Source: Streptomyces chattanoogensis
GTDB lineage: Bacteria > Actinomycetota > Actinomycetes > Streptomycetales > Streptomycetaceae
Assembly: GCF_001294335.1 (NCBI RefSeq)
Contig: NZ_LGKG01000137.1
Location: 1-64,000 of the forward strand
Direction of reading: 5' to 3'
DNA: 64,000 nucleotides
Part shown: positions 3,331 to 22,053 of the stretch, piece after piece
Layout of the letters: each line of letters begins with the position of its first letter
Position numbering within the stretch: position 1 is the stretch's first letter
Program-made: the position numbers and the translations under genes
The notes under the pieces: generated by a model
The model's input: the letters and a program-made list of their open reading frames with translations, nothing else
Database searches by the model: none
What the model was told of the DNA's origin: nothing

Positions 3331-3410
3331 GACTCCTCCGGCGGCGGTACAGCAGGTGCTCTCGCAGCCTAGCGGGAGCAGTGTGCCGGCGCGCTGGCTT
3401 CGTCAGGCCG

Positions 3411-4861: not shown

Positions 4862-4886
4862 CGGGAGAGGCCCCCAAGTCGGTGGG

Positions 4887-5705: not shown

Positions 5706-5721
5706 GGTCTCCCCCAGCGGG

Positions 5722-7253: not shown

Positions 7254-8757
7254 CGCGTTCTCCGTAGATCATGCGGGGCGCATGGCCCGTGACCACGAGA
7301 TCGGCAGTCGTCCCGATCGGGACGACTGTCTCGCGCTCGACGATCTGGATGGAGTACGAGCCCAGCCGTCGCCACCAGGTGCCGCCTTTGCCGATGAAGT
7401 ACGAATGGAGACCGGGCACCTGCAACCCGGTCGGGTAGACTCGCTCCTTCATCGGCTGGTCCCAGGTGAAGTCGATGTCCGCCTTCCACGAGGGGAAGTG
7501 CTCGGCCGACGGCAGCGGTTCCAGCTCACCGAGTGCGGCCAGCGGCGTGCCCGGGAAGGCCCGGGCCAGGCGTACGTTCGTGCGGTGGCACAGCAGGCCG
7601 GCATCGAGGATCCCGGCCAGATTCCGCAGGTTCGCCGCATGGGTGCCGTGGGTCTCGCCGGGCAGACCGTAGATCAGGTTGAGGCCCGGGAGCAGCATCG
7701 GCAGACCGCCGGGGCCGCGGGCAGCGCCCGCCTCGTTCACGTGCTCGACGGCACGCATCAGGATCTCGGGCGTGCAGGTGAGGTTGTTCCGCTCGATGAC
7801 CACGGGGTCGAAGCTCTCGATGCCCATCGGCGCGCAGTTGCCCTCGGTGCAGTAGTCCGCCACCAGCTTCGCGATGCGCAGGCCCACAGGCGCGGCCGCG
7901 GCCAGGGGGTCCGCGTTGTCGATGTGGAGCACCTCCAGCTCGGGACAGCGTTCCCGGATTCCGCCCAGCAGGGCGCGGATCGCTTCCTCGTCCCTGTTGC
8001 GGTAGGAGAAGAAGCAGGTCTGCTGGCCGAGGCGGAAGTTCCGGACCCCGGCCGCGTAGAGCTGGGCTGCCTCGGCGACGACGTCGTCGACCTCGCGGAA
8101 AGCGACGAGGCGCGACTTGGCCGGCTCGTTGCAGAAGTCGCAGAACTTCCGCCGGGTGCAGCCGCGATACAGCTCCAACTCCGCGATCGGGCGCCAGGGC
8201 ATCTGCTCGACCAGGCCGGTGAACGAGTCGCGGTCGCGTTCCATCTGCGCGTAGTCGGCGGCGCGACGGCTGCCGAGCAGAAGATCACCGGACGTCACGG
8301 TGTGGGTGTGCACTGCGTCGAACAGTCCGGCGTACTTGGCAGGCATGGCCAAGGCATAGGTGGACAGCGGTCCGAGCAGGTATCGGCGTCCTCGCGCACA
8401 GGCAAGCGCGCGGGCGATCTCCTCCAATGACCCGTTGACCGCGTGCAGATGTACGGACGGAACGGCGTCTCCGGCTACGACAACGACGATCTCGGCATCA
8501 CGCAGGAGCTGAATGGCGGCGTCGCGATTGGCGGTGGTCGAGTACGTCAGCGGATCGCTCTGGGGCGGCTCGACGGCAGGTCTGCCACCTGCCAGGCACC
8601 ACCGGACGTCGTCGATGGTCACGTACCGCACGTCCGCCTCCGGCCGAGCACGCCGGAGCGCCGACCAGGCGTTTCGGACATAGGTCGACAGGTATGGCGG
8701 TACACCGAGGCCACTCGGCTCGACGGTGAAGCAGTCCAGGATCACTACAGGCCGCAT
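7237..8757 (-). CDS. Radical SAM protein with CX5CX2C cluster
   Basis: 506 residues, first gene of the minus-strand operon. An N-terminal Rossmann-like region (1-185) is followed by LYRGCTRRKFCDFC at about 197-209 with cysteines 200, 206 and 209. The spacing is CX5CX2C rather than the usual CX3CX2C, but the surrounding pattern and a later GIESFDPVVIERNN (about 360) and NLIYGLPGET (about 407) are classic radical SAM barrel motifs. The C-terminal 60 residues resemble a TRAM-type substrate-binding domain. It probably performs the radical step of the pathway; reaction unknown. Residues 1-4 with an ATG at 8757 look like the natural start. Confidence 0.75.
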   Translation of the reverse strand: MRPVVILDCFTVEPSGLGVPPYLSTYVRNAWSALRRARPEADVRYVTIDDVRWCLAGGRPAVEPPQSDPLTYSTTANRDAAIQLLRDAEIVVVVAGDAVPSVHLHAVNGSLEEIARALACARGRRYLLGPLSTYALAMPAKYAGLFDAVHTHTVTSGDLLLGSRRAADYAQMERDRDSFTGLVEQMPWRPIAELELYRGCTRRKFCDFCNEPAKSRLVAFREVDDVVAEAAQLYAAGVRNFRLGQQTCFFSYRNRDEEAIRALLGGIRERCPELEVLHIDNADPLAAAAPVGLRIAKLVADYCTEGNCAPMGIESFDPVVIERNNLTCTPEILMRAVEHVNEAGAARGPGGLPMLLPGLNLIYGLPGETHGTHAANLRNLAGILDAGLLCHRTNVRLARAFPGTPLAALGELEPLPSAEHFPSWKADIDFTWDQPMKERVYPTGLQVPGLHSYFIGKGGTWWRRLGSYSIQIVERETVVPIGTTADLVVTGHAPRMIYGERVAAAS

Positions 8758-8967
8758 GCTGTTCTCCCTCCAGAGCCGGGGGCGTCGGCGGCACTCCAGC
8801 GGCGTCCTTGCCGGGAAGGCCGTCGGCCCGCAGCCCTCTCAGTCTCAGGGCTGGCGGGGTTCCAGAGGAGGGAGCAGCAGGGTTGTTCGGTTGTACGGGA
8901 GTTGTTCTTTCATGGCTCTGTGTCGAAAGGCTGGGACAGAGGGTGATCCGCAAGGCATCATCTCTGC

Positions 8968-10353
8968 ATGGGTAGTGCAAGGGGGGCCGGCGAAGCCAAC
9001 GCCGCATTCGCGGCTGTGCTCTTGGAGGCCGGTTGTTCGCACGCGGCCTTGGCCCGCAAGGTCAACGAACTGGGTGCGCTGCAGGGCGAAGTGTCGCGCT
9101 ACGACAAGGCGTCGGTGACCCGCTGGCTGCAGGGGATGACCCCGAGGAAGCGCGCGCCCGAGTTCATCGCCGCCGCTCTGGCCAGCTTCTTAGGACGTCC
9201 CGTCACCCCCGTTGACATCGGCTTCGCAGAGCAGCCCCAGAGGCCAGTGGTTGCACGGGCCTTGACGTACCGTGAAGACGTGGGTGAAACACTGCACACG
9301 CTCGCGGAGCTGGGCTCCACCGACATCGCGAGGCGCAGTCTCCTCGGCGCGGCGCCGTTCGTCGCGACTGCCCTCATCGACCCGCAACGGCAGTGGCTCC
9401 TGTGGCTTCTTGAAGACGAGCAGGCTCCCCGGCTCGCCGCGGTCGCTGGCAGCGGCCCCGTCAAGCAGGTCCAAGCGATGATCGAGATGTTCGATGAGAT
9501 GGACAACCGCTTCGGCGGTGGCGGAGTCAGGGCGAGCATCGTGCACTACCTGAGCACCGAACTGGCCCCCATGCTGCAGCAGCGCAACATGCCCACGCAC
9601 CAGCGCCGACTCCTCTACACCTCGGCCGCGAAACTGGCCGCGATGGCTGGCTGGTGCTCGTACGACTCCGCCGATTACGGACTTGCAGAGCGTTACATGA
9701 TCCAGGCGCTCAGGCTGTGCGCCGAAGGCGGCGACCGCGTACTCGGCAGGCAGATCCTGGCAGGCATGTCTCACCTCGCCACCAGCCTTGGCAACCCTGC
9801 CGAAGGCGTCTCGCTGGCGCGTGCGGGAATCGCGACCGCCAAGTCAGCGGGCAGCCCGCTGGGACTCATGCGCCTGCACGCCATGGCTGCCCGCGGTTAC
9901 GCCGTCCTCGGCGACTCTCGCCGGGCCAGTGCCTCTCTGCACGCGGCCAGCGGAAGGCTGGAAGTCAGCCGGGGGCCTGCTGAGGAATCGCCGTGGGTCC
10001 GTTTCCTCGACCACCACTATCTGGAGGCCGAAGCCGCCTTGGTCCACCGCGACCTCGGCGAGGCAGGTCAGGCCGAGCGCCTCGCCACGGCGTCCGTCGC
10101 GGCGAACAGCGACCGCCGCCGTCGCCAGGCGATCAGCCGCTCGGTGCTCGCGACAGCATTCCTCCAGCAGGACCGGTTGGACGAGGCGGTCGGCACCGCG
10201 AGCAACGCCCTGGACCTGCTCGCTGGCGTTCACAGCGAGCGCTCCGTCCAAGCCCTGCGCGACTTCCGTGCACGTCTTGCGCCTCACAGAGGTGAGGCGA
10301 TCGTGCGCGACTTCGAACGGAAGGCCCGGCCCGTACTCGGCACAGCGGCCTGA
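8968..10353 (+). CDS. Helix-turn-helix regulator with helical-repeat domain
   Basis: 461 residues. The N-terminal 75 residues have the layout of Streptomyces HTH regulators (NAAFAAVLLEAGCSHAALAR, then YDKASVTRWLQGMTPR as the recognition part). The rest is all-alpha with TPR-like repeats (for example HLATSLGNPAEGVSLARAG and RDLGEAGQAERLATASVAAN), as in pathway-specific regulators of secondary metabolism that sense a ligand. It is divergent from the radical SAM operon across 210 bases, so it is the obvious candidate regulator of that operon. Some members of this family act as quorum or metabolite sensors; the ligand is unknown. Confidence 0.75.
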   Translation: MGSARGAGEANAAFAAVLLEAGCSHAALARKVNELGALQGEVSRYDKASVTRWLQGMTPRKRAPEFIAAALASFLGRPVTPVDIGFAEQPQRPVVARALTYREDVGETLHTLAELGSTDIARRSLLGAAPFVATALIDPQRQWLLWLLEDEQAPRLAAVAGSGPVKQVQAMIEMFDEMDNRFGGGGVRASIVHYLSTELAPMLQQRNMPTHQRRLLYTSAAKLAAMAGWCSYDSADYGLAERYMIQALRLCAEGGDRVLGRQILAGMSHLATSLGNPAEGVSLARAGIATAKSAGSPLGLMRLHAMAARGYAVLGDSRRASASLHAASGRLEVSRGPAEESPWVRFLDHHYLEAEAALVHRDLGEAGQAERLATASVAANSDRRRRQAISRSVLATAFLQQDRLDEAVGTASNALDLLAGVHSERSVQALRDFRARLAPHRGEAIVRDFERKARPVLGTAA

Positions 10354-10363
10354 CCACCTCGGC

Positions 10364-11173
10364 TCAGTACCCCTCCGGCGTTGGTGCGTTCTGGCCCTTG
10401 TCGACGGGGAGATTGACCCCCGTCACCCCTCGCGATTGCTCCGAGAGCAGGAACGCGATGACGTCGGCCACCTCCTCCGGCCGCACCAGCTCCCGCCCCG
10501 GGAACTCGGCGCGGAACCGGTCAAAGGCCGGCGGATCCTCCTGGCGCATCCGGTCCCACCGCTTCCCCGGGATGAGCATCGACCCCGGCGAAACCGCGTT
10601 CACGCGGATGCCATCCGCAGCCAGCTCCCGTGCGAGGCACGACACCATGTGGATTTGGGCTGCCTTGGCCGCGCCGTACTGCGCCTGCGGGCCTGGTTTC
10701 CAGCCGGAGACCGAGGACACCACGATGATGGGGCCACCGCCAGCGGCCCGCAGGTGCGGGGCGCTCGTAGCGACCAGCCGAGCGAAGTGGCCGGCGTTCA
10801 TATCCCAGGTAGCTGACCAGTCCTGAGCCGTTGCCTCGGTAATTCCTCGGCCACGCGCTCCTCCCGCGCACGCGACGACGCCGTCCAGGCCGTCCAGCGC
10901 TGATGCGGCCTCCTCCACAAACCGCTCCAGTAGCTCCGGCACGGCGACGTCCAGGGGCTGGGTGAACAGGGTGTCGGGCGAATCGAGCGAACTGCGCAAT
11001 GCCTCCAGCGGCTCGGGCCGCCGGGCACACGTTGCGACGCGGGCTCCCTCCGACAGCAGCAGGCGTACGACGTGCTCCCCCAGCCCCCGGGAACCGCCCG
11101 TCACCACAATCCGGCGGCCAGCAAACCGCCCCGTCGCCGCCCGCGGCCTGCGGTCGTGTCCTGTGTCAGTCAT
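10364..11173 (-). CDS. SDR-family oxidoreductase
   Basis: 269 residues, normal for a classical short-chain dehydrogenase/reductase. The NAD(P)-binding motif TGGSRGLGEH lies near residue 24; the active site is VVSSVSGW ... YGAAK (Ser, Tyr and Lys at about 151, 165 and 169), and the later RVNAVSPGSM is typical. The C-terminus, GVNLPVDKGQN, resembles the VTGxxLxVDGG end of the family. It converges with the regulator gene (10 bases apart) and diverges from the 11.5-kb operon. Substrate unknown; it could serve either flanking cluster. Confidence 0.85.
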   Translation of the reverse strand: MTDTGHDRRPRAATGRFAGRRIVVTGGSRGLGEHVVRLLLSEGARVATCARRPEPLEALRSSLDSPDTLFTQPLDVAVPELLERFVEEAASALDGLDGVVACAGGARGRGITEATAQDWSATWDMNAGHFARLVATSAPHLRAAGGGPIIVVSSVSGWKPGPQAQYGAAKAAQIHMVSCLARELAADGIRVNAVSPGSMLIPGKRWDRMRQEDPPAFDRFRAEFPGRELVRPEEVADVIAFLLSEQSRGVTGVNLPVDKGQNAPTPEGY

Positions 11174-11537
11174 CCGTACAACCTCTCACCAACTGTGCCG
11201 ACCTGCGTGGCCACAAACATCCTCCGTGCCCTCTTCTTACCGGGCCGCCTGGGCGGTTCTCTTGTGGACGTTCCCGGTCCGGGGACAACCGTGCAGTCGG
11301 CCAGCCGACCCCGGGCCCGCAGATCGGGAGACCGCACCAACCCCGGATGGCCGTCTGCCACTGCTGTACCGCCGAGCCCGGGGCCGGCGGCCCGAATCAC
11401 GAAACGAGCGAGAGCCAGCGACCGCACCCCGCGCTCCTCTCCCAACTCGGGAGGCACATCGTGTCCCAGGCATCACCTCTGCGTAACAGACTCACGTTGG
11501 CCGACACCCCCAACGCGGTCGGCTTGGCACGGTCGCG
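11174..11537. other. Divergent intergenic region
   Basis: About 360 bases between the SDR gene (minus) and the ATPase-domain gene (plus); it must hold both promoters. The sequence is arginine/proline-rich in every frame and no ORF with a ribosome site was accepted. No convincing -35/-10 pair was fixed by eye. Confidence 0.35.
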
Positions 11538-12011
11538 ATGATCGTCGGAACAGTCGAGGATCTGGGGCTTGCATCCGAGGCCGTACGAGACGACCTGATC
11601 CTCTGCATCAAGCGTGACCCCAGGCCCGAGGGACACCCCACCCCGGAGCACGAGGGCCGGTGGGTCTGCCGCCTCCGCCGGATCAGCACGGCCAAGCTGT
11701 GCCACTGGGGGATCCCCGGCCTTGTCGACGACGCCGAAAGTGCGATCAGCGAACTCGTCACCAACGCGCTGGTATACGGGACGGGTGACCGGGTCGCCTT
11801 CCGGTTCCTCCTCGGCGCCGACGTGCTCGCGCTCGAAGTGGACGACGGTTCCCCCGAGCGAGCGCTCGTCAACACAGCGGACCCGGACGACGAGAACGGC
11901 CGCGGCATGTTCATCGTCAGCGCGCTCTGCACTCTGTGCGGCGTGAGTCCCGACGGAACCAAGACCTGGTGCACCTTCAAGATCCCCACCACCCCGCGGA
12001 GGAACCGATGA
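11538..12011 (+). CDS. HATPase_c anti-sigma-type ATP-binding protein
   Basis: 157 residues. The pattern AESAISELVTNALVYGTGD (N box, about residues 70-88), LALEVDDGSPERA (G1 region) and DENGRGMFIVSALC (G2 region) matches the GHKL ATPase fold of SpoIIAB/RsbW-like anti-sigma regulators, which are very common in Streptomyces. It has no other domain. It is the first gene of a chain of overlapping genes ending just before the RiPP precursor, and its stop overlaps the next start (ATGA). The partner protein is unknown. Confidence 0.75.
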   Translation: MIVGTVEDLGLASEAVRDDLILCIKRDPRPEGHPTPEHEGRWVCRLRRISTAKLCHWGIPGLVDDAESAISELVTNALVYGTGDRVAFRFLLGADVLALEVDDGSPERALVNTADPDDENGRGMFIVSALCTLCGVSPDGTKTWCTFKIPTTPRRNR

Positions 12012-12481
12012 CTGCTGCAACCAGCCTCGCGCGGCGGACGCCCTCGCGAGACGACACTGTGGAGAAGGCCAAGCGGGTCGGCGACCGCGCCACCATCGAG
12101 CGGTTCGTGGCTGGGCTGAAGGAATCGTTGGCCGTCGACTTGGTCGCCCTTGCCCATGTCGAAGACGACATCGACGCAGCGCTTGGTGAACGCGGGCTGG
12201 CCGCCAACGAGATCACTCCGTTGTCTCTGCGGCTGCGCAGCGCAGTCGCCCAGCTCGTTGACCTCGTGATGCAGGAAACGAACGGCCGGCCCCAGGGCAA
12301 GGTCGCCGCCGCGGTCCTCCGCTCCTGTCATGCCTTGGAGGAGGCGCTGCCGGCAGAAGGCGCTGAGGCTCTGGGACACCTACGACGCGTTGCGCTGGCC
12401 GCCCAGGACATCCTCGATCAGGACGTGATCGACGAAGACGTGCTGGACCGCGCGGCGAGCCTGGGCGGTGAAGCCCCATGA
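12008..12481 (+). CDS. Hypothetical helical protein
   Basis: 157 residues from the ATG at 12008, which overlaps the previous stop. Sequence is strongly alpha-helical, acidic and lacks cysteine motifs or membrane segments (for example ERFVAGLKESLAVDLVALAH and QVIDED-like acidic repeats near the end). No family recognised. The overlap on both sides (ATGA at 12008 and again at 12478) shows it is part of a translationally coupled set. Confidence 0.65.
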   Translation: MTAATSLARRTPSRDDTVEKAKRVGDRATIERFVAGLKESLAVDLVALAHVEDDIDAALGERGLAANEITPLSLRLRSAVAQLVDLVMQETNGRPQGKVAAAVLRSCHALEEALPAEGAEALGHLRRVALAAQDILDQDVIDEDVLDRAASLGGEAP

Positions 12482-12624
12482 GGCTCCAAGTCGCCTCTCG
12501 CCCCGCAGTGTCCTACTGCGCTGAACTCCCTCTCCACCGGTTCGAGGTGGACCCCCGAAGCGGGCCGGTGGAGAGGGGCACCAAGGACGGGCTGAAACTG
12601 CTTTGCGAGGAGGCCGCGTCGTGA
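12478..12624 (+). CDS. Small protein (48 aa)
   Basis: An ATG overlapping the preceding stop (ATGA at 12478) opens 48 codons starting MRLQVASRPAVSYCAELPLH and ending CEEAAS; the stop overlaps the next GTG (GTGA at 12621). Precise overlap at both ends and GC-rich third positions argue that it is translated. No signal peptide or known motif; two cysteines. Function unknown. Confidence 0.6.
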   Translation: MRLQVASRPAVSYCAELPLHRFEVDPRSGPVERGTKDGLKLLCEEAAS

Positions 12625-13025
12625 CCCGGATGACGTTGCTGGAGGCCATCACCGCCGCGGTGTGGGGTGACGAGCCTGGAGACGAACTTGCGATTCTTCG
12701 TGAGGACGCCGAACAGGTCATCCGCGACGCACGCGCATCCCTGAATCACCCGGATGCCAAGAACCCGGCGGGCATGAACGTGCCGAGGGTGGAGGCGGTC
12801 ATCGCCAACCTCCTGCCGTACTGCCAGGCCCATCTGGACCCCTCCAGAGCGAACACCGTGGCCAGGACTGTCGTCGAGCATGCGCACGACCTCGTCAGCG
12901 GCACCCACAGCAGCTGGTGTTACCCGGCACGGCGGCGGCTGCGCATCCTGCTGTACTCCGCCAGCCGGTTGCTCGCCCTGACGCGGGCCGGGCCCGACAG
13001 CGGCACCCCTGGAACTTCACCTTGA
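12621..13025 (+). CDS. Hypothetical helical protein
   Basis: 134 residues from the GTG at 12621, preceded by GCGAGGAGG and overlapping the previous stop. Predicted all-alpha; a central PYCQAHLDPSRANTVARTVVEHAHDL and an Arg-rich stretch RRRLRILLYSASRLLAL near the end. The frame is open further upstream (12603), but the coupled GTG is preferred. No family recognised. Confidence 0.6.
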   Translation: MTRMTLLEAITAAVWGDEPGDELAILREDAEQVIRDARASLNHPDAKNPAGMNVPRVEAVIANLLPYCQAHLDPSRANTVARTVVEHAHDLVSGTHSSWCYPARRRLRILLYSASRLLALTRAGPDSGTPGTSP

Positions 13026-13050
13026 CCAGCCCCACTTCCGGAGACTTACG

Positions 13051-13242
13051 ATGTGCCAGCATCACCCCCCGTGCCCCAGTGCAGAGGCTTCTGATCGCGA
13101 GGCCGCGCAGGTCCTGTCCAGCCACCCCGAACAAGGGTGGACGCTGCTCTGCAACGGCGTCCTGCTCTTCGAGGACACAGGCGAACTGCTGCCGAACGGG
13201 CAGATCATCGCACCGCGCCGCGCCGCGGCGGTCCCGGCATGA
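13051..13242 (+). CDS. DUF5999-family small protein
   Basis: 63 residues with a good ribosome site (CCGGAG, 9 bases before the ATG). The sequence from MCQHHPPCPSAEASDREAA to GWTLLCNGVLLFEDTGELLP and a final IIAPRR is the pattern of DUF5999, a small family frequent in Streptomyces, often beside regulators. The Cys and His at the start (C-x-H-H-P-P-C) may bind metal. Its stop overlaps the next ATG. Molecular function is not established. Confidence 0.75.
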   Translation: MCQHHPPCPSAEASDREAAQVLSSHPEQGWTLLCNGVLLFEDTGELLPNGQIIAPRRAAAVPA

Positions 13243-13919
13243 GCCGACTGATGGCCCGCCCCACGTTCGTCCCGTACATCACCACCCGCGTCGGCGAGGA
13301 ACCCGCCTCGGCGGCGACGCTGGGCGTGAGGCCCGGCCCCAACGGTGGCCTGTACTACGCGGACGAAGGACCGCGGGACCGGGATGCCCGAGGCGTGCTC
13401 TGGGCCCGCTGCTCGCAAAGCCGCCTCGGCAACACCCTCCATGGCAAGCCCCGTTGGCGCGACGTACACCCAGCACGTCAACGGGAGTGCATGGAGAAAC
13501 TGCTGTGCCAGGGGTGCGTCCAGCAAGCCAGCCGGACCTCCCTGGGGTACCTCTTCCTCGCCTCACCGCCGCCCGACACCACGTCGAACGACTGGGTCGA
13601 GGGGTACCGCACCGCGCAGCCGCCGCTCTGCCTGGAGCACGCGGTCATCGCGACCGAACAGTGCGGACACCTCTTGAGGGAAGGCGTCGTTGCCCTCCGC
13701 TCACGGGTGCCCCGCCTGTACGGCGTGCTCGGCATGTACTACCAGAGCAGGGGGCTCCAAGCCCCCGAGCCCGTCAAGCCGGACGCAGAGGACGACGTCC
13801 CACCCCTCTCGTACAGGGACCGGCGGCTCATTCCTTGGATCTTGGCGTCACAGCTCGTGCGCGAGCTGCGTGGCGTCACAATCGTCAACCTCGAAGAGGA
13901 GATCGAAGCCCGTGTCTGA
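13239..13919 (+). CDS. Hypothetical Cys-containing protein
   Basis: 226 residues from the ATG overlapping the DUF5999 stop (13239). Contains RARCSQSRLG, LLCQGCVQQA (CxxC, about residues 88-91) and PLCLEHAVIATEQCGHLL, a spacing that could form a zinc site. Similar cysteine-bearing proteins of unknown function accompany small regulators in Streptomyces, but no family can be named. It overlaps a tiny downstream ORF by 8 bases. Confidence 0.6.
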   Translation: MSRLMARPTFVPYITTRVGEEPASAATLGVRPGPNGGLYYADEGPRDRDARGVLWARCSQSRLGNTLHGKPRWRDVHPARQRECMEKLLCQGCVQQASRTSLGYLFLASPPPDTTSNDWVEGYRTAQPPLCLEHAVIATEQCGHLLREGVVALRSRVPRLYGVLGMYYQSRGLQAPEPVKPDAEDDVPPLSYRDRRLIPWILASQLVRELRGVTIVNLEEEIEARV

Positions 13920-14022
13920 CTTCATCCACCGGCGCCTGACCGAATCCGGCGTGACGTTCCGGCCGCGGGGCATGCGCTACTCGCGCCGGCCGCGCGGCAG
14001 CGGCCTGCGGCCCCCGCGCTGA
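13912..14022 (+). CDS. Very small basic protein (36 aa)
   Basis: GTG start at 13912, overlapping the end of the previous gene by 8 bases; 36 codons beginning VSDFIHRRLTESGV and ending in an Arg/Gly/Pro-rich tail. It is the last ORF before the 287-base leader of the peptide gene. The overlap supports translation, but the composition is low-complexity and it could be accidental. Confidence 0.4.
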   Translation: MSDFIHRRLTESGVTFRPRGMRYSRRPRGSGLRPPR

Positions 14023-14309
14023 CAGCCCGCACAGGCGGGGCCCCTTGCAGATCCTGCAAGGCATTTGCACGCCCTGCTAATCGACCACCACGGCCGTCGC
14101 GCTGATGGTGCTCTCGAAGCGGCACCACCGGCACGAAGTGGATCGTCGCCGACCACTGCATCCTCACCCAGGGCTGAATCCCGAGACTTCCCGCCCCGGC
14201 CAGGGACGGGCAGGCGGGCCCGCAAGGGCGGGCCCGCGGCACCACCGGCATGCGGGCAGCAGGCGCCCGCACTGTCCGCAATCACAGCACGCAACGAAGG
14301 AGAAGACCC

Positions 14310-14414
14310 ATGGAGTCCAAGTCCGGAATCGCCGCCGCCAGCACCTCGGCCGAGGAGACCGAGAACATCACCGCTCCCGTGGTGGTGGCCGTCGACGTCG
14401 AGGACGAGGAGTAG
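14310..14414 (+). CDS. Candidate RiPP precursor peptide (34 aa)
   Basis: 34 codons with a good ribosome site (GAAGGAGAAG, 8 bases before the ATG). The peptide starts MESKSGIAAASTSAEETE, continues NITAPVVVAV and ends DVEDEE, so it has an Ala/Ser/Glu leader-like half, a short hydrophobic stretch and an acidic tail, with no Cys and no Lys after residue 4. It directly precedes TfuA-like and YcaO genes, the pair that installs backbone thioamides, and is separated from them by a strong hairpin, the usual arrangement for a highly expressed precursor. The modified residues and cleavage site cannot be read; a C-terminal core is inference. The 287 bases upstream hold further GC hairpins but no accepted gene. 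Confidence 0.7.
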   Translation: MESKSGIAAASTSAEETENITAPVVVAVDVEDEE

Positions 14415-14439
14415 TCCCCGTTTCGCGCGTCCTGACCTA

Positions 14440-14483
14440 GGGCGCCCCTCCCCGGCCCCGCCCGGGGCCGGGGAGGGGCGCCC
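14440..14483 (+). terminator. 20-bp perfect hairpin between peptide and tfuA
   Basis: Left arm 14440-14459 and right arm 14464-14483 are perfectly complementary (20 bp) around the 4-base loop GCCC. It lies 25 bases after the peptide stop and 25 bases before the TfuA-like start. No T-tract follows, as is usual for Streptomyces terminators. Likely role: partial terminator or 3-prime stabiliser giving much more peptide than enzyme mRNA. Confidence 0.75.
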
Positions 14484-14508
14484 CTCGCGCTTGACCGTGG
14501 AGGTCACA

Positions 14509-15780
14509 GTGATTCATGTGTTCGTCGGGCCGACGCTGCCCAGCTCCGAGCCACCACTCGCCGCGCCGGGCGTACAGGCGTGGCCGCCGGTTGGGCACGG
14601 CGACCTGTTCGATCCCGCGATCCGCAGCGGTGACACGGTGGTGATCATCGACGGGGTGTATCACCAGGCGCCGGCGCTGCGACATAAGGAGATCCTGGCC
14701 GCGATGGGCCAGGGAGTGAAGGTGATCGGTGCGGCGAGCATCGGCGCGCTGCGCGCGGCTGAACTGGCGCCATACGGGATGCTCGGCGTCGGACACATCT
14801 ACGCCGCCTACGCCAGGGAGGAGATCAACGGCGACGACGAGGTGGCGGTCGGGCAGGCCCCGGACGGGGAGTTCGGAGCGCTGACCTGGCCGGTGGTCAA
14901 TCTCCGGCACATCCTTCAGCTCACCCAGTCGGCTGGGGTGATCGACGGCGAACGGGCCGCCAAGATCCTTCAGGCGCTGCGGGCGGTCTACTACCCGCAG
15001 CGCACATGGGCCGCCGTACGGGCCGTGTGCCGCCGCCTGGACGAGACGGAGTTCGCCGGGTGGCTGGCCGCACAGCTTGAGCAGGACCGGCACTTCGGCG
15101 ACCTCAAGCGCGCCGACGCCCTCGAAGCCGTACGCACCGCGCTGGACGACGGCACAGCACCACAGACCGATGCCCCGCTGGAACCCGCGGCGTGGGAAAC
15201 GACGTACTTCCGACGCTGGTCCAACGCCTTCGCCCGCACCTGTGTGGACAGGCTGGAACTGTCCACCGAGGACCGCCTCGTTTACCAGCAGGTTTTCGAC
15301 CCGGCGTTCGCCAAGACGTGGGCCGCCTACCTCGGACACCGCTCCCTGAACCCCGCCGACGGCGCGGCGGGTTTGCCGCTGGAGGCGCGGCTGGCCCAGG
15401 TCACCGGCGGCGGCCTGGGCGCCGACCGCGTGTTCCACCCGCCGATCGACCTGCGCGACGAGCAGACCGTGGCCCTACTGCTGGCCGGCGAGACCGAGCA
15501 GGACCGCCGGGCGGTCGCCCGCTACGCCGACGCCCTTGTTGGGGAGCGCCGCACCCGGCCCGGGTTCACGGTCGCAGCGGTGCGCGATGACCTCACCCGC
15601 CAGCTCCTGATGCGGGTGTGGCAGTGCTCTGAGCAGGAGTTCGACGCGGAGGCGTCCGCGCGCGGGCTGGTCTGCGGGGCGCGCGCCGTCGTGGCGGCCA
15701 AGCGGCTCGTCCCCGGGCTGCTTCAAGAGATGAGAGAGACGACGACCGAGCGGACGGAGGCGGCCGGTGTTACGCGGTGA
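14509..15780 (+). CDS. TfuA-like protein
   Basis: 423 residues from the GTG at 14509 (GGAGG at 14499-14503). The N-terminal 200 residues show the TfuA core: IHVFVGPTLPSSE, DTVVIIDGVYHQAPALRHKEIL and GAASIGALRAAEL, with the conserved G-A-A-S-x-G-A-L-R-A-A-E-L motif, then a long variable helical C-terminal part. TfuA proteins partner YcaO enzymes and deliver sulfide for thioamide formation, as in methyl-coenzyme M reductase modification and thioamidated RiPPs. The gene overlaps ycaO by 14 bases, which fits a TfuA-YcaO complex. Confidence 0.85.
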   Translation: MIHVFVGPTLPSSEPPLAAPGVQAWPPVGHGDLFDPAIRSGDTVVIIDGVYHQAPALRHKEILAAMGQGVKVIGAASIGALRAAELAPYGMLGVGHIYAAYAREEINGDDEVAVGQAPDGEFGALTWPVVNLRHILQLTQSAGVIDGERAAKILQALRAVYYPQRTWAAVRAVCRRLDETEFAGWLAAQLEQDRHFGDLKRADALEAVRTALDDGTAPQTDAPLEPAAWETTYFRRWSNAFARTCVDRLELSTEDRLVYQQVFDPAFAKTWAAYLGHRSLNPADGAAGLPLEARLAQVTGGGLGADRVFHPPIDLRDEQTVALLLAGETEQDRRAVARYADALVGERRTRPGFTVAAVRDDLTRQLLMRVWQCSEQEFDAEASARGLVCGARAVVAAKRLVPGLLQEMRETTTERTEAAGVTR

Positions 15781-16918
15781 CGGACTGGTGGCGCTGCCGG
15801 GCACGGTGCGCGCCCGGACGCCGGAGGAGACATGGGAGGCGCTGGTCGAGTGCCTTGAGGACAAGTTCGGCATCACCCGGGTCGCAGAACTGACCGGCCT
15901 GGACTGCATCGGCCTGCCGGTCTTCACGGCGATCCGGCCCACGTCGCGGACCCTAAGCACGTCACAGGGCAAGGGCGCCACCGCGCTGTTGGCGAAGGTA
16001 TCGGCGGTGATGGAGGCGATCGAGCTGTGGCACGTCGAGCAGCCGCTTCCCGTCGCCGCGCGCGGCCCGGCCGCCGAGGTCGCCCCCGACTGCCCCGTGA
16101 CGGTGCTACCGCTGACTGTCCCGTATCCCGAACGCACCCTGGCTCAGGTGGTGTGGGAGTGGACCCCCGGCACCGGCCTGGTCAGTGGCAGCAAGCGGCT
16201 GCTTCCGGTCGACCTGGTCCGCCGCCGGGTACAGCGACCCGAGTGGAGCCCGGATCTGCTGCGTGCGACAAGCACCGGTCTGGCGTGCGGCAACACCCGC
16301 GACGAGGCCCTGCTGCACGCCCTGTTCGAGGTCGCCGAGCGGGACGTGCTGTTCCAGGATGGCCAGGTGGGCGGGCGGCGACGCACCCTCATCACGCCCG
16401 GAACGGTCGACGACCCCCACGGCCGCGAGGTTGTTGGGCGGCTGCTGGCTGCGGGCATGGCGCTGGAGATCGCGCTGGTGGACGGCCCGTATGGGCTGCC
16501 GGTGTGCGTTGCCTACCTGTGGTCGGAGGACTACCCCGTCGTCTTCGCCGGCGGCGGCTGCCACACGTCCCCGGCAATCGCGCTGACCCGGGCGCTGACC
16601 GAGGCCGCGCAGTCCCGGCTGGCCGCCATCGCCGGAACCCGCGACGACCTTCCCAGCGACCCAAGCAGCTTCGACACCCCGCCCTTCCGCCCGGCGCCCA
16701 CCACGGGGCGCGCGCCGTGGCGGGAGGCAACCGGCCACTTCACCGGGGCGGGCGGCGGTTTCGCCGAGCAGGCCGGGGCGGTGGCGCAGCGGATCGCGCA
16801 CGTCACCGGGCACGAGCCGGTGGCCCTGGATCTGTTCGCCCTGGACTCCCCCGTTCATGCCGTGCAGGTCGTCTGCCCCGGCACCCGTTCGCGGACCAGG
16901 AGGTCAATGCCCCGATGA
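15767..16918 (+). CDS. YcaO-family cyclodehydratase/thioamide synthase
   Basis: 383 residues from a GTG with CGGAGG upstream. ATP-site motifs are visible: TSQGKG (67-70 QGKG), SAVMEAIE (79-86) with the SxxEAxE pattern, and further acidic residues at FEVAERD (about 187-193). YcaO enzymes phosphorylate a backbone amide oxygen; with TfuA they produce thioamides rather than azolines. The last 12 residues (CPGTRSRTRRSMPR region) look unlike the usual end, where another frame reads PFADQEVNAP, so a frameshift or altered C-terminus is possible. Overlaps tfuA by 14 bases and the methyltransferase by 4. Confidence 0.85.
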   Translation: MLRGDGLVALPGTVRARTPEETWEALVECLEDKFGITRVAELTGLDCIGLPVFTAIRPTSRTLSTSQGKGATALLAKVSAVMEAIELWHVEQPLPVAARGPAAEVAPDCPVTVLPLTVPYPERTLAQVVWEWTPGTGLVSGSKRLLPVDLVRRRVQRPEWSPDLLRATSTGLACGNTRDEALLHALFEVAERDVLFQDGQVGGRRRTLITPGTVDDPHGREVVGRLLAAGMALEIALVDGPYGLPVCVAYLWSEDYPVVFAGGGCHTSPAIALTRALTEAAQSRLAAIAGTRDDLPSDPSSFDTPPFRPAPTTGRAPWREATGHFTGAGGGFAEQAGAVAQRIAHVTGHEPVALDLFALDSPVHAVQVVCPGTRSRTRRSMPR

Positions 16919-17769
16919 ACCCCACCACCACGGCGAAGCCGCCTGCCGAGAAGCGCTCCGCCCAGTACGACGCCTTCCATACTGCCCGCGCCCGCACCGA
17001 TCTGGTCGCCCGCCTGTACGCCGCGGCGATGGGCGAGGACTACCCCGCCGAGGTCGCTGCCTCCAGCTCGTGCGACTGGCCCCTGCTGGGACTGATGACC
17101 ACGCGGCTGCGGATGCGGCCCGGCCAGCTCTTGGTGGACGCGGGCTGCGGCACCGGAGGCATCGGCCTGTGGCTGGCCCGCGCCCTCACCCTGCGCCTAG
17201 AGAGCTTCGACCTGTCCCCGGTCGCCGTCGCCCAGGCCGCCGACCGCCGCACCCACTTCGGCATACCGGCCCAGCGGGCCGTCTTCCACGTCGCCGAGTT
17301 GGAAGACACCGGCCTGCCCGACGGCTGTGCCCACGGCATCGTGTGCGTGGACGCCCTCGGCGGCGCCGACGACCGCGACGCGGCACTGCGTGAACTCGGC
17401 CGCGTCCTGGCCCCGGGCGGCCGGCTCGTGATGACCTGGGCCTCGCGGCGGGACACCGCCCCCGCCTGGCCGGAGCGGGCCCGCGCCGCCGACCTCACGG
17501 TCGAGCACGTGGACGAGCGGCCCGCCGAGCCCGCACTGTGGGAGCGGCTCTACCGGCTGTGGATCGCCCACGCCGACGAGCTACACAGCGAGTTGGGCGA
17601 GACCCAGGCCGAGCGCATGCTTCGCGAAGCGCATCAGGTGCTGCCCGCACTGTCGGGCCGCCGCGCCGTAGTGCTGACCCTGCGGCGCCCCGCGAATGCC
17701 ACAGACAGCCGTGGTGCGGCCGATACGATGACTGGGCCCGGACGCCATGACGAGAGGACCCCGCAGTGA
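16915..17769 (+). CDS. Class I SAM-dependent methyltransferase
   Basis: 284 residues; the ATG overlaps the YcaO stop (ATGA). SAM motif I VDAGCGTGG lies at 74-82, followed by ESFDLSP (acidic residue for the ribose) and a motif IV region HGIVCVDALGG. The N-terminus (about 1-60) contains QYDAFHTARARTDLVARLYAAAMG, resembling helical caps of small-molecule or peptide methyltransferases. Probably methylates the peptide or a group added to it. GTGA overlap couples it to the GpsA-like gene. Confidence 0.8.
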   Translation: MNPTTTAKPPAEKRSAQYDAFHTARARTDLVARLYAAAMGEDYPAEVAASSSCDWPLLGLMTTRLRMRPGQLLVDAGCGTGGIGLWLARALTLRLESFDLSPVAVAQAADRRTHFGIPAQRAVFHVAELEDTGLPDGCAHGIVCVDALGGADDRDAALRELGRVLAPGGRLVMTWASRRDTAPAWPERARAADLTVEHVDERPAEPALWERLYRLWIAHADELHSELGETQAERMLREAHQVLPALSGRRAVVLTLRRPANATDSRGAADTMTGPGRHDERTPQ

Positions 17770-18779
17770 ACCAGCGCCATTCGGCCCGTGCTGCGGTGTT
17801 CTCGGCCGGGTCCTGGGGCACCGCCGTGGCCAAGATCCTGGCCGATGCCGGCACCAGCGTCATCGTGCACGCCCGACGGGATGAGATCGCCGACGCGATC
17901 AACACCCAGCACCGCAACCCCGGCTACTTCCCGGACATCGAGCTGCCCGCCGCCCTGACCGCGACGACCGACCCGGCCGCCGCACTCGCGGGCGCGGACT
18001 TCCTGGTGCTATCGATCCCCGCGCAAAGCCTGCGGACCAGCCTCGCCGCATGGGCGCCGCACATCGGACCCGACACCGTGATCGTGTCGCTGATGAAGGG
18101 AATCGAGCAGAGCAGCCATCTGCGGGCGAGTCAGATCATCACTGAGGTGACCGGCGTGAGCGCCAACCGGGTGGCGGTGCTGTCCGGGCCGAACCTGGCG
18201 CGCGAGATCATGGACGGGCAGCCCGCCGCCGCCACCGTCGCCTGCGCCGACGAGGACGCCGCCCACCGCTTCCAAAAGGCGTGCCACACCGGCTACTTCC
18301 GCCCGTACACCAGCACTGATGTGACCGGCTGCGAGCTGGGCGGCGCGGTGAAGAACGTCATCGCCCTCGCGGTCGGCATCGCCACCGGCATGGGCCTGGG
18401 CGACAACGCCACAGCGATGCTCATCACCCGCGGGCTGGCGGAGACCACCCGCCTGGCTGTGGCCATGGGCGCCAACCCAGCCACCCTCGCCGGCCTGTCC
18501 GGCACGGGCGACCTGGTCGCCACCTGCTCCTCCCCACTGTCGCGCAACCGCACCTTCGGCACCCACCTCGGCAAGGGGCTGAGCGTCGAGGAGGCGACGG
18601 CCGCCACCCGGCAGACCACCGAAGGCGTCAAGTCCGCCGAAGCGATCCTCGCCCTGGCCCGCGCCCACGACGTTGAGATGCCGATCACGGAAGTCATCTC
18701 CGCCCTGCTGCACGAGAAGGTCACCCTCAACGAGGCCGCCGCCGCGCTGATGCAGCGGCCCCCCAAGCCCGAGCGCTGA
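17766..18779 (+). CDS. GpsA-like glycerol-3-phosphate dehydrogenase
   Basis: 337 residues, the normal length of NAD(P)-dependent glycerol-3-phosphate dehydrogenase. FSAGSWGTAVAKILADAG is the N-terminal dinucleotide fold (usual G-A-G-S-W-G-T-A; here the first Gly is Ser), and later VSLMKGIE, GPNLAREI, GGAVKNVIALAVG with the catalytic Lys, and SGTGDLVATC are all present. GpsA reduces dihydroxyacetone phosphate to sn-glycerol 3-phosphate for phospholipids; a biosynthetic-cluster copy suggests a glycerol-derived substituent or an altered substrate. GTG start overlaps the methyltransferase stop. Confidence 0.85.
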   Translation: MNQRHSARAAVFSAGSWGTAVAKILADAGTSVIVHARRDEIADAINTQHRNPGYFPDIELPAALTATTDPAAALAGADFLVLSIPAQSLRTSLAAWAPHIGPDTVIVSLMKGIEQSSHLRASQIITEVTGVSANRVAVLSGPNLAREIMDGQPAAATVACADEDAAHRFQKACHTGYFRPYTSTDVTGCELGGAVKNVIALAVGIATGMGLGDNATAMLITRGLAETTRLAVAMGANPATLAGLSGTGDLVATCSSPLSRNRTFGTHLGKGLSVEEATAATRQTTEGVKSAEAILALARAHDVEMPITEVISALLHEKVTLNEAAAALMQRPPKPER

Positions 18780-18848
18780 CCCCCGGCGCCCCGCCCGCGC
18801 GGGCCGCCCACCCACACCTTCACCCTCCCCACCCGGAGGTTCCTGCCC

Positions 18849-19205
18849 ATGCACACGTCTGTGCTGTCTGCTGTCCAGATCGCCATCTCCCTCGGCCTGG
18901 TCGCGTGGATGATCACCGGCTTCACTCCCCTGCCCGGCCGCTGGCTGCGCTGGAAGATGTTCTGCCGAGCCACCTTCACGATCATCTCGCTCACCGGCAC
19001 CACCAAGGACGGCCGCACCGAGCCCGTCAACGTCTACGACCACCTCTCCCCGGGCAGCTTCATCCTCGGCCCACCCCAGCTCCAGACGATCCTCGACCAC
19101 CTCACCTCAAGCGGCCGGTACGACCGGATCGACGGACACGGCCGCGTCCTGTCCGCCCGCGGCGAGCAGACCGTAGAAGTCAGGGGCAGCCGTGTGGTTC
19201 TTTGA
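18849..19205 (+). CDS. Small membrane-anchored protein, HTTM partner
   Basis: 118 residues. One N-terminal membrane segment (VQIAISLGLVAWMITGF, about residues 9-25), then a basic stretch and a soluble beta-type domain (EPVNVYDHLSPGSFILGPPQLQTILDHL). A ribosome site GGAGG precedes the ATG. The last 14 bases overlap the HTTM gene, implying coupled translation and a membrane complex. No family recognised. Confidence 0.6.
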   Translation: MHTSVLSAVQIAISLGLVAWMITGFTPLPGRWLRWKMFCRATFTIISLTGTTKDGRTEPVNVYDHLSPGSFILGPPQLQTILDHLTSSGRYDRIDGHGRVLSARGEQTVEVRGSRVVL

Positions 19206-20046
19206 CGCCCTCGCCTCCGGCTTCCAGCACCCCACCGACCCCGGACACCTCCAGTGGTTCCGGATCATCTTCGGTGCCGTGCTCACCGCGCGGTTCTCCC
19301 TCGCCTTCGGCCAGGGCGGCTGGGACCGCCTCAACCCCGGCTCGCTCAGCGCCTACCTCGCCGAGCAGCGCCTCGGCCCCGCCCGAGCCCGTCTCCTGAT
19401 CACCTTCTACCGCCCCGCGCTGATCGCCCGTACGGCCGCCGCCCTCGCCCTGGCGCTCGGCCTCGCCCCCCGCCTCGCGCTGCTGGTCATCCTGCCCGGC
19501 GCCGCCATGGAGCTGCTGTACCTCAAGAGCCCCAACGCCATCCGCTACACCCTGCTGACCGGCACATGCCTCCTGTTCGCCAGAAACCTCGGTCACAGCC
19601 CCATCGTCGAGCACGGCCTGAGCACGGCGAACACCTGGGCGCAGTGCCTCCTCGTGCTGATCACAACTGACATCTACTGGAACAGCGCCTGGCAGAAACT
19701 CCGTTCCGCCCAGTTCCGCAGCGGGCTCTACCTCGCCCAGTGGGTCCACACCTACACCCAGGTCAGGGACCAGTTGCCTTACCGGCGCCAGTTCGCCGTA
19801 CCCGGCCTCGTCCGCCGCCACGCGGGCAACCTCACCGCCCGGGACGTCCGCCGCTGGCGCGCGGTCGCGGCCACCGTCATCACGGCGGAGATCACGCTGC
19901 CGCCCGCGCTGCTCATCGAGCAGACGATGCCGTACGCGGTCGTCGCTGGCATCGCGATGCACGCCGCCTTCACCTGCCTCAAGCCCCGCCAGCTCATCAC
20001 GTTCTCCGGCCTCACCCTTGGCACTTACGTCGCCTTCGCGGCCTGA
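19192..20046 (+). CDS. HTTM-domain membrane protein
   Basis: 284 residues from GTG with about five to six hydrophobic segments (near 27-40, 75-108, 117-134, 146-162, 215-262). The opening FFDALASGFQHPTDPGHLQWFRIIFGAVL and the motif RLNPGSL resemble HTTM proteins, bacterial relatives of the membrane domain of vitamin-K-dependent gamma-glutamyl carboxylase, also common in epoxidase-like and unknown roles. Here it ends the peptide operon; the peptide tail is Glu-rich, so a membrane-bound tailoring reaction is conceivable but unproven. Confidence 0.65.
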   Translation: MWFFDALASGFQHPTDPGHLQWFRIIFGAVLTARFSLAFGQGGWDRLNPGSLSAYLAEQRLGPARARLLITFYRPALIARTAAALALALGLAPRLALLVILPGAAMELLYLKSPNAIRYTLLTGTCLLFARNLGHSPIVEHGLSTANTWAQCLLVLITTDIYWNSAWQKLRSAQFRSGLYLAQWVHTYTQVRDQLPYRRQFAVPGLVRRHAGNLTARDVRRWRAVAATVITAEITLPPALLIEQTMPYAVVAGIAMHAAFTCLKPRQLITFSGLTLGTYVAFAA

Positions 20047-20093
20047 CTGTCCCTCCGCCGGCCGACAGGGCGCCATCGAAAGCAAGCACGCCG

Positions 20094-20405
20094 CTATCGG
20101 CCGCCGGTCGAACGGATTAACTCCGTCACGTCTCGGTCGCTCCGCAGGGAAATCTCGGTGGCGAGGGCCGCCACCTGTCCGGCCATCACCATCAGCAGGT
20201 TGGGCAGAATGCACTTGTCATCAGACCCGGCCGCGGCAATCCGAGCGTGGGACTCAGCCAGTTCGGTGGCGAACTTCTCCTCGATATCTGCCCCCTCTGC
20301 CTACGGGGACCTGGTCGCTGGAAGGGTGATGTGGTCCATGCCACAGTCGGCCATAAGGCAGGCCAGCGACGGGCCTCCTGGTCGAGGGGTCACGTCGACA
20401 TACAT
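20094..20405 (-). pseudogene. Small gene interrupted by in-frame TAG
   Basis: On the minus strand an ATG at 20405 with a clear ribosome site (GAAGGAG) opens 34 codons (MYVDVTPRPGGP...) to a TAG at 20301-20303. The same frame then continues for 68 coding-looking codons (ADIEEKFATELAESHAR..., LPNLLMVMAGQVAAL..., DVTELIRSTGGR) to a stop at 20094. No new start lies soon after the TAG. Simplest reading: one gene of about 103 codons broken by an amber mutation. Family unknown. Confidence 0.5.
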
Positions 20406-20543
20406 GTGGACTCCTTCACAGGGTGCAAGAGTCCTGCACATCCGACAGCGCTGGTCCGCGTGGCGCCGACGGGCCTACTTCGCTCAACTGAGGCGCCCAG
20501 TAGAGCCTCCACCAGCCACCAGGCCCGGTCTACCGTGTCACCC

Positions 20544-21371
20544 ATGACAGCTCTGATCATCGGTGGCAGCGGCTTCCTGGGGGCCGAACTGATCCGGCAG
20601 GCGAGAGCAGCCGGGCACGCTACGGCCGGGACGTACACGACGAAGCCCGGCGACGCCTCCCCGATCGCGTGGCATCCACTCGATCTGCGGGACGTGGGAA
20701 GCCTGGCCGCCGTCGTGGCCGAGGTGGACCCGCACATCATCATCAACGCATCGAGCGGCGGGACTGACTGGGCCATCACGGCAGCAGGGCCTATTCATCT
20801 CGCGATGCTGGCCGCCAAGCACGGAACCCGCATGGTCCACGTGTCGACCGACGCCGTGTTCTCCGGTGCCGCAGTGCATTACGACGAGTCTGCTCTCCCG
20901 GACCCCATCACTCCATACGGCGCAGCCAAGGCTGCGGCAGAGACCGGGGTCCTCGCCGTGCATCCGAATGCTGTCGTCGCCCGCCCGTCGCTGATCATCG
21001 GCTACGGGCGTTCCGAGCACGAACAGCTCGTGCACGGACTCGCCTCCGGCGCCGTCGACGGCGCCTTGTTCACCGACGACATCCGGTGCCCTGTGCACGT
21101 CGCCGACCTGGCGGCCGCCCTCTTGGAACTGGCGTCGAGTGATGTGGCCGGCATCCACCATCTCGCAGGGCCTGACGCCCTCAGCCGTCACGAACTCGGC
21201 GTCCTCATCGCCAAGCGGGACGGTCTTGACGCCTCCCGCCTGCCTGCGGGCCTGCGGGCGGACAGCCGTCTTCTCGGAGCCCTCGACGTGCGCCTCAACA
21301 GTCAGGCGACCCAGCGACAACTGCGCACCACGCTGCGCGGCGCCCGGCAGTTCCTGCGTCCCGGTGTGTAA
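20544..21371 (+). CDS. NAD-dependent epimerase/dTDP-4-dehydrorhamnose-reductase-like
   Basis: 275 residues from the ATG at 20544. GGSGFLGAELIRQARAAGH is a Rossmann NAD(P) site; HVSTDAVFSGAAVHYDE (family: STDYVFDG...YxE) and TPYGAAKAAAE with Tyr-x3-Lys are the RmlD/extended-SDR active-site signatures. Such proteins reduce or epimerise sugar nucleotides; some act on other substrates. It stands alone after the RiPP cluster and converges with a regulator gene. Confidence 0.8.
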   Translation: MTALIIGGSGFLGAELIRQARAAGHATAGTYTTKPGDASPIAWHPLDLRDVGSLAAVVAEVDPHIIINASSGGTDWAITAAGPIHLAMLAAKHGTRMVHVSTDAVFSGAAVHYDESALPDPITPYGAAKAAAETGVLAVHPNAVVARPSLIIGYGRSEHEQLVHGLASGAVDGALFTDDIRCPVHVADLAAALLELASSDVAGIHHLAGPDALSRHELGVLIAKRDGLDASRLPAGLRADSRLLGALDVRLNSQATQRQLRTTLRGARQFLRPGV

Positions 21372-21375
21372 CGAA

Positions 21376-22053
21376 CTACCGGTAGTTCACCCAATAGGGC
21401 GGGCCATCGGACCAGCTCCGAGTCCTGTCGGCCGAGTTCGCTCCAGCGCTCAATCGCGGTGTAGACCGGCCCCAGGGCGCCACCCGCGTCGGTGAGTATG
21501 TAGGGGGCACCGTGCTGGGTTCCGGACCGGGCCGCCAGTCCATCCTCCGGAATCGCTCCAGACGCCTCGCGGTGTAACCGGTCTGTAGTCCTGCCTTTTG
21601 GGCGATGCGAAGGATTGACGTCGGCCCAAGTTCGTCGAGCGCTTGGACCACAGCGGTGGACCTGCGCGGGTACAGCCGCCGGGCAGCGTCTTCGACGCGC
21701 TCAGCAGTGGTCGCTGCACCGATCGACAGGTGTAGCCAGGACCACTCGAACAAGGCTTGGCGAACTGGGGCGAGAGCGCAGCCACGGTCGGTGAGCTGGT
21801 ACGCAACGGCAGTGTGGTCGCCGGTCCGGGTGACCAGGCCATCGGAATGCATCTGATTGAGCAGACGATAGACGTTCGTGACGTGCGGCAGGCGCGCGGC
21901 GATGTCACACACGCGCATGGGAACACGCTGTGGGGTGAGGATCTCCACAACCGGGGCAGTCCACCTGCGCGCTGCGACGCGCAACGTCTCTTCGACACGC
22001 TGCGCGTTGACTGAGCAGAGCTGGGTGGTCGCGGGCGGAAAGGTGCTTGCCAT
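21376..22053 (-). CDS. Dual winged-helix (HxlR-like) regulator, frameshifted
   Basis: 225 residues as read. The first domain (about 15-115) is a winged helix of the HxlR/MarR type (RWTAPVVEILTPQRVPMRVCDIAARL ... DGLVTRTGDHTAVAYQLTDRG). A second similar domain starts at RRSTAVVQALDELGPTSILRIAQKAG but after RRLERFRRM the frame turns to non-coding sequence. One base away the minus strand reads LAARSGTQHGAPYILTDAGG and ALGPVYTAIERW, the expected wing and C-terminal helix, so a single-base deletion near 21542 has shifted the end. Restored, the frame would end at 21302, overlapping the convergent epimerase gene. Possibly inactive. Confidence 0.65.
   Translation of the reverse strand: MASTFPPATTQLCSVNAQRVEETLRVAARRWTAPVVEILTPQRVPMRVCDIAARLPHVTNVYRLLNQMHSDGLVTRTGDHTAVAYQLTDRGCALAPVRQALFEWSWLHLSIGAATTAERVEDAARRLYPRRSTAVVQALDELGPTSILRIAQKAGLQTGYTARRLERFRRMDWRPGPEPSTVPPTYSPTRVAPWGRSTPRLSAGANSADRTRSWSDGPPYWVNYR

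Follow-up and report, generated by a model that had tools for sequence, protein, structure and literature searches.

A probable thioamide-type RiPP operon of Streptomyces with its own GpsA lineage and a candidate GGCX-like membrane protein pair

What would a 34-residue peptide, a TfuA-YcaO pair, a methyltransferase, a glycerol-3-phosphate dehydrogenase and two membrane proteins make together? The question is raised by seven genes at positions 14310-20046 of a stretch of 64,000 nucleotides (hereafter the window) from Streptomyces chattanoogensis, contig NZ_LGKG01000137.1. All lie on the + strand, in the order and at the positions that a first-pass annotation of the sequence had given: peptide, TfuA, YcaO, methyltransferase, GpsA, small membrane protein (sm) and HTTM protein. 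Our reading is that they would form an operon for a ribosomally synthesized and post-translationally modified peptide (RiPP) of the thioamide type, where the methyltransferase and GpsA would provide a small group and HTTM and sm, as a split relative of the gamma-glutamyl carboxylase GGCX, would act on the acidic tail of the peptide. To this explanation as a whole we assign a probability of about 0.5.

The genes for TfuA and YcaO overlap by 14 nucleotides (nt), YcaO and methyltransferase by 4 nt, methyltransferase and GpsA by 4 nt, and sm and HTTM by 14 nt, and because of these overlaps the seven genes are read as one operon. Its end is set at 20046 since the genes downstream of HTTM vary between loci. 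The features are the following:

14310..14414, + strand: precursor peptide, 34 residues; alignment of 33 related peptides, with purifying selection seen in the codon-position pattern
14440..14483, + strand: hairpin between precursor and tfuA, 20-bp perfect stem and 4-nt loop, z -5.94
14509..15780, + strand: TfuA-like protein, 423 residues, GTG start; PF07812 143.6 bits, PDB 6xp8 E 8.2e-26
15767..16918, + strand: YcaO protein, 383 residues; PF02624 187.2 bits, PDB 6pe3 (MJ1094) E 2.7e-27
16915..17769, + strand: class I S-adenosylmethionine (SAM) methyltransferase, 284 residues; Methyltransf_25 55.4 bits, closest solved structure MitM, E 1.3e-13
17766..18779, + strand: GpsA-type NAD(P) glycerol-3-phosphate dehydrogenase, 337 residues; PF01210/PF07479 (NAD_Gly3P_dh_N 165 bits, NAD_Gly3P_dh_C 177.2 bits), key residues kept, operon lineage in the tree
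18849..19205, + strand: sm, 118 residues, one membrane helix and a small alpha/beta domain by structure model and fold comparison, belonging to no family
19192..20046, + strand: HTTM-like membrane protein, 284 residues, with the GGCX membrane-domain fold in its model; PF05090 below cut-off, Foldseek and VIA-align, Lys169 in 30/30

The thioamide-type assignment starts from the adjacent TfuA and YcaO proteins, both above the cut-offs of their Pfam families, as are the methyltransferase and the two domains of the dehydrogenase. The sole PDB match of TfuA (6xp8) is itself a TfuA protein, and the top match of YcaO is the archaeal MJ1094, with the azoline-forming YcaO proteins being weaker (E 5e-10 and weaker). 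Both proteins also match the NCBIfam models for McrA thioamidation, under the cut-offs, as expected. Thioamidation is described as the established chemistry of the TfuA-YcaO pair (PMC13185837). The proposal of a thioamide-type RiPP operon made in the first-pass annotation is supported by these matches, and, judging from sequence, the locus is probably such an operon. Also, the TfuA of the window extends for about 200 residues beyond the parts matched by Pfam TfuA (48-166) and NF033432 (2-209).

How constant is this set of genes? A TfuA search of 392 Streptomyces genomes gave a match in 69; seven genomes carry a full-length match with at least 65% identity and seven one with 45-51%, two of them with one in-frame TGA. 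In PLSDB, 352 records match, and 28 of these matches span 80% or more of the protein, with 18 at 62-74% identity, nine at 48-51% and one from Amycolatopsis at 39%. The loci compared, with genes assigned by tblastn, come from 17 of these 28 records (14 linear and 3 circular) and from 19 genome regions. Clade A comprises 22 loci, including the window, with TfuA, YcaO, methyltransferase, GpsA and sm. HTTM is present in 20 of them, the other two being L043, which stops at a contig end, and L042, with a cut sm and no HTTM; in L039 and L068 the translations show an altered or shortened HTTM. Clade B comprises nine loci with TfuA, YcaO, methyltransferase and GpsA and without sm and HTTM, and the remaining loci hold fewer of the operon's genes. 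Some chromosomal copies are near chromosome ends (genomes G094, G193 and G090). In a protein database, 201 sm clusters and at least 234 HTTM clusters (7998 candidates scored for the latter) were found at E up to 1e-3, and among the best 120 of each the named ones are mostly from Streptomyces. As a side observation, genome G245 carries two copies of the operon (L042 and L043), the first with the truncated sm and the second with its TfuA match in two adjacent pieces.

The precursor gene begins with an ATG preceded by AAGGAG and encodes MESKSGIAAASTSAEETENITAPVVVAVDVEDEE. A related small open reading frame with a ribosome site lies 40-150 nt upstream of tfuA in 33 loci, namely the 22 of clade A, eight of clade B and the partial or reduced L046, L051 and L053; L001, which is cut by a contig start, was omitted from the alignment. 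The peptide is found in 22/22 clade A and 8/9 clade B loci, that is, in 30 of the 31 loci having TfuA, YcaO, methyltransferase and GpsA, with L003 as the exception. Conservation of this 34-codon frame in related loci was the check proposed in the first-pass annotation, which comes through it intact. Next to tfuA in L003, L048, L052, L054-L057 and L075, no peptide of this kind was found. For L052 and L056, where TfuA is distant (35-38% identity), a different candidate precursor, MAEVI(L/V)(D/E)TASDVxEL...ITDSEVRD, lies 87 nt upstream of tfuA.

In the clade A peptides the N-terminal half is variable, and the C-terminus VVVAVDVEDEE is nearly fixed. The variants in clade A are QDVFDEE (L065, L067), IDVDDEE (L071), VVI (L041, L069, L072) and an extension in L044. 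Clade B peptides end in VVRSEDVEQEECYTF, VRIEDVEDEGP and similar, and the motif common to both clades is roughly VVxxxDVE(D/Q)E. Over the last 11 codons of 21 clade A loci (L044 alone being omitted owing to its extension), differences amount to 8.1, 3.3 and 28.5% at codon positions 1, 2 and 3, 532 codon differences being synonymous and 204 of other kinds. For the N-terminal part, the values are 40, 28 and 31% in 19 clade A peptides retained by a motif filter, which removed 21 of 40 loci (clade B and L044, L065 and L067). This pattern indicates a translated, nearly invariant C-terminus next to a drifting leader. In many families of antibiotic RiPPs it is the core that varies and the leader that is kept; we read the pattern here as that of a precursor which would yield a single conserved product rather than a diversified antibiotic. 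Against this, a C-terminal recognition tail would look alike, showing the same conservation as a fixed core.

The first-pass annotation had also remarked that the peptide has no Cys. This is true of the window and of the other 21 clade A peptides, but it does not extend to the family, as EC[YF]TF is the ending of 7 of the 11 clade B peptides. In thioamitides, a precursor Cys is needed for the aminovinylcysteine (AviCys)-type ring, so that no such ring is expected in clade A. The locus and the thioviridamide-like thioamitides have in common the TfuA-YcaO pair and a hydrophobic stretch, here VVVAV, which by analogy with the thioviridamide core we take to be the likely thioamide site; they differ in the absence of Cys and in the other tailoring genes.

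What does GpsA do in such an operon? The protein is a full-length member of its family (NF000942, 448.9 bits for a cut-off of 257; both Pfam domains) and is 63% identical to the other GpsA of this genome. K111, K196, D249, T253, R260 and N261, which serve in catalysis and phosphate binding in known GpsA enzymes, are kept in at least 21/22 clade A and at least 8/9 clade B copies. A second full, housekeeping-like GpsA was found in all 12 cluster genomes searched. In an unrooted tree, the 31 operon copies (22 from clade A and nine from clade B) and one further gene, L106, split from the 12 housekeeping copies with support 100/94; clade A alone has 100/99, whereas clade B is not one group. Thus, like the Streptomyces housekeeping enzymes in length and key residues, the window copy differs from them in belonging to a separate, operon-bound lineage, which by sequence has an intact active site and is present in both clades. 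The first-pass annotation had taken GpsA and HTTM for non-standard extras, a view that these distributions overturn, HTTM being present in nearly all of clade A. L106 itself (genome G152, C869:12330-13328) is a third GpsA which groups with clade B operon copies with support 100/100 and perhaps marks a second operon in that genome.

One use weighed for GpsA is the supply of glycerol-3-phosphate (G3P), or the reduction of a dihydroxyacetone phosphate (DHAP)-like group, for the product. The conserved G3P/DHAP residues would fit this chemistry, and with it the glycerol-derived modification suggested in the first-pass annotation, and would fit equally a spare, perhaps resistant, GpsA. In the latter case the peptide would inhibit the housekeeping enzyme and the operon copy would be a product-insensitive target conferring self-resistance. 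The second GpsA in every genome searched, the separate grouping of the operon copies, the preserved catalytic residues and the 117 of 123 family-wide invariant positions that these copies share with the housekeeping enzyme are what such a target would look like. However, the six differing positions are mild relative to the window's housekeeping copy (A/T, A/S, S/T, P/A, A/T and I/L) and indicate no altered binding site, and strict coupling to the operon in both clades is expected equally of a biosynthetic enzyme. We therefore hold self-resistance to be a serious but doubtful explanation.

Are sm and HTTM a catalytic pair? Against Pfam PF05090, HTTM scores 19.6 bits, under the cut-off of 27.7, and 14 of 15 relatives match the same family below E 10 (best 4.8e-4). 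This weak call is firmed up by the structure model, in which Foldseek and VIA-align recover the GGCX membrane-domain fold. Human GGCX is vitamin K-dependent and modifies glutamates in clotting factors. Lys169 of HTTM is invariant (30/30), pairs with a lysine of SdpB in a profile alignment and, by its motif, may be the counterpart of the catalytic Lys218 of GGCX. The Glu pocket of GGCX is reported to include His160, Asn159 and Tyr395 (PMC12589487). By eye, no counterpart of these three, including the Glu-binding His160, is evident in HTTM. Also, human GGCX is one protein where two are found here, sm and HTTM are far smaller, and identity is 14-19% over the aligned residues. Searched by profile against PDB sequences, HTTM matched nothing but two designed proteins, over some 40 residues, and one SdpB found no match there by sequence. 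The HTTM model had no match in a viral structure library at E <=0.001, and two matches there, one carrying the name HTTM, reached a probability of 1.00. For sm, no family was found in Pfam (16 members, E up to 10) or NCBIfam (four members). Based on the model, sm and HTTM are a candidate GGCX-like pair for a modification at the membrane, which narrows the membrane-localised modification suggested in the first-pass annotation to a candidate protein and its partner.

On the other hand, the pair could be non-catalytic, serving immunity or export and placed like SdpA and SdpB in sdpABC operons. The order of a small membrane protein followed by HTTM is that of the SdpA-SdpB loci of four Streptomyces genomes, where a small membrane-anchored protein likewise adjoins an HTTM protein, and clade B manages without the pair. 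Moreover, the HTTM profile aligns with SdpB and two other HTTM proteins, six sequences together, with a probability of 80%, although it reaches only 16% with SdpB alone and 0.1% with the two others alone. Nonetheless, sm is not SdpA by profile (hhalign probability 0.3% against four Streptomyces SdpA), the peptide and the other enzymes are unlike those of sdpABC, and the GGCX fold with its invariant lysine favours catalysis. An HTTM protein with a DUF5819-like partner is presumably another pair of this kind; sm as a DUF5819-like protein was rejected as well (0.2%). An immunity or export role is thus a tentative possibility, which we consider doubtful. The strongest form of the catalytic reading, in which sm and HTTM would be a minimal, two-gene vitamin K-dependent carboxylase that uses menaquinol to gamma-carboxylate the glutamates of DVEDEE in a thioamidated peptide, or to activate them in another way, making a bacterial RiPP of the gamma-carboxyglutamate (Gla) type, we likewise regard as unlikely in its full detail.

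How is the operon controlled, and could its product be a signal? The hairpin between precursor and tfuA has z <= -2.8 in five of eight loci folded and values between -0.08 and -1.13 in the other three. Paired cells are 95.7% in 18 loci, and covariation is weak, with three cells changed on both sides, a number reached by 19 of 500 shuffles. Because of the weak z in three loci and the weak covariation, a conserved RNA structure is not claimed. The corresponding stretches of the 22 clade A loci fold at -39 to -70 kcal/mol, a figure without control, and an Rfam scan of 8000-22000 gave no match. The hairpin may let the precursor be made in excess over the enzymes.

A divergent gene for an NsdA-family helix-turn-helix/tetratricopeptide (HTH/TPR) regulator lies within 3 kb in 18/22 clade A loci and within 4 kb in 4/9 clade B loci, and 8 of 10 such neighbours tested pass the NCBIfam cut-off of NF053720. 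The genome of the window holds 14 NsdA-type genes above cut-off in 9.13 Mb, so chance neighbours should be rare. Between the divergent gene and the precursor, 190-420 nt upstream of tfuA, a CCCCCA...GGGG repeat block is seen by eye in 11 of 12 loci aligned (L040, L042-L044, L060-L064, L068 and L002, but not L059), and from its sequence it is a likely candidate operator. By analogy with the peptide-binding TPR regulators of Firmicutes, the product could then be a signal sensed by the adjacent regulator and the operon a plasmid-borne communication module, which would agree with the fixed core, the low background of NsdA-type genes and the placement of the repeats. However, nine of these same loci went into the search profile, related loci are not independent, and the regulator is not beside four of the 22 clade A loci, the window included. 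There, the nearest NsdA gene (8968-10353) is 4.2-5.6 kb away in the other strand sense, and it is unlikely to regulate the operon because it sits in a block of its own, 3076-11294, with an 83% match on a plasmid of Streptomyces sp. NBC_01237. In the literature searched, no publication was found joining NsdA, tetratricopeptide and Streptomyces, so no peptide ligand is documented there. A signalling role is therefore unlikely. Finally, it is very improbable that TfuA-YcaO thioamidates another protein with the peptide as by-stander or regulator, as archaeal pairs are reported to do with the large McrA (PMC5589413), since in every case the peptide gene opens the operon, the peptide is under purifying selection, and its clade agrees with that of the enzymes.

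Returning to the thioamide RiPP operon, the steps could be as follows. In the hydrophobic stretch VVVAV, YcaO and TfuA would install at least one thioamide, as expected from their families. Then, the SAM methyltransferase and the GpsA-type dehydrogenase would add or supply a small group, for which G3P/DHAP chemistry is favoured because the GpsA active site is kept. In clade A only, HTTM and sm would work at the membrane as a relative, in split and minimal form, of the vitamin K-dependent gamma-glutamyl carboxylase (by the modelled fold). With menaquinol, they would alter the acidic DVEDEE tail, either gamma-carboxylating it or acting on it through some other reaction begun by a strong quinone-derived base. 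Removal of the N-terminal half would leave one conserved molecule as product.

The peptide family is probably that of RiPPER Network 2, comprising 25 Streptomyces peptides, six of them annotated before, which head a conserved operon (Santos-Aberturas et al. 2019, PMC6511847). Judged by description, both are short, mostly unannotated Streptomyces peptides opening a conserved TfuA-YcaO operon; the passages of that paper on Network 2 mention neither GpsA nor a GGCX-like pair. Also, no publication was found uniting a TfuA-YcaO operon with either of them in a search that left most subscription papers outside.

The operon sits on a contig of 155,566 bases with a relaxase gene (PF03432) at 30339-32069, and from both it is probably carried by a mobile or plasmid-derived Streptomyces replicon. 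Elsewhere in the window, the block at 3025-11173 on the - strand, which overlaps the NBC_01237 match, encodes a deoxynucleoside kinase-like protein, a nucleoside deoxyribosyltransferase, a PfkB kinase, HhH-GPD-like, arylmalonate decarboxylase-like and radical SAM proteins, and then the NsdA-family regulator and a short-chain dehydrogenase. Its gene content suggests a module for the biosynthesis of a nucleoside-like product. The protein encoded at 42472-44052 combines a WXG100-like stretch with a Tox-REase-2 domain and is probably a toxin of bacterial competition.

To our knowledge, bacterial HTTM proteins are widespread and their chemistry is unsettled. Here, the operon of an HTTM protein also encodes a peptide of 34 residues with a glutamate-rich, almost invariant end, and if sm and HTTM are the two-gene carboxylase outlined above, what bacterial HTTM proteins do chemically could be linked to a defined small substrate.

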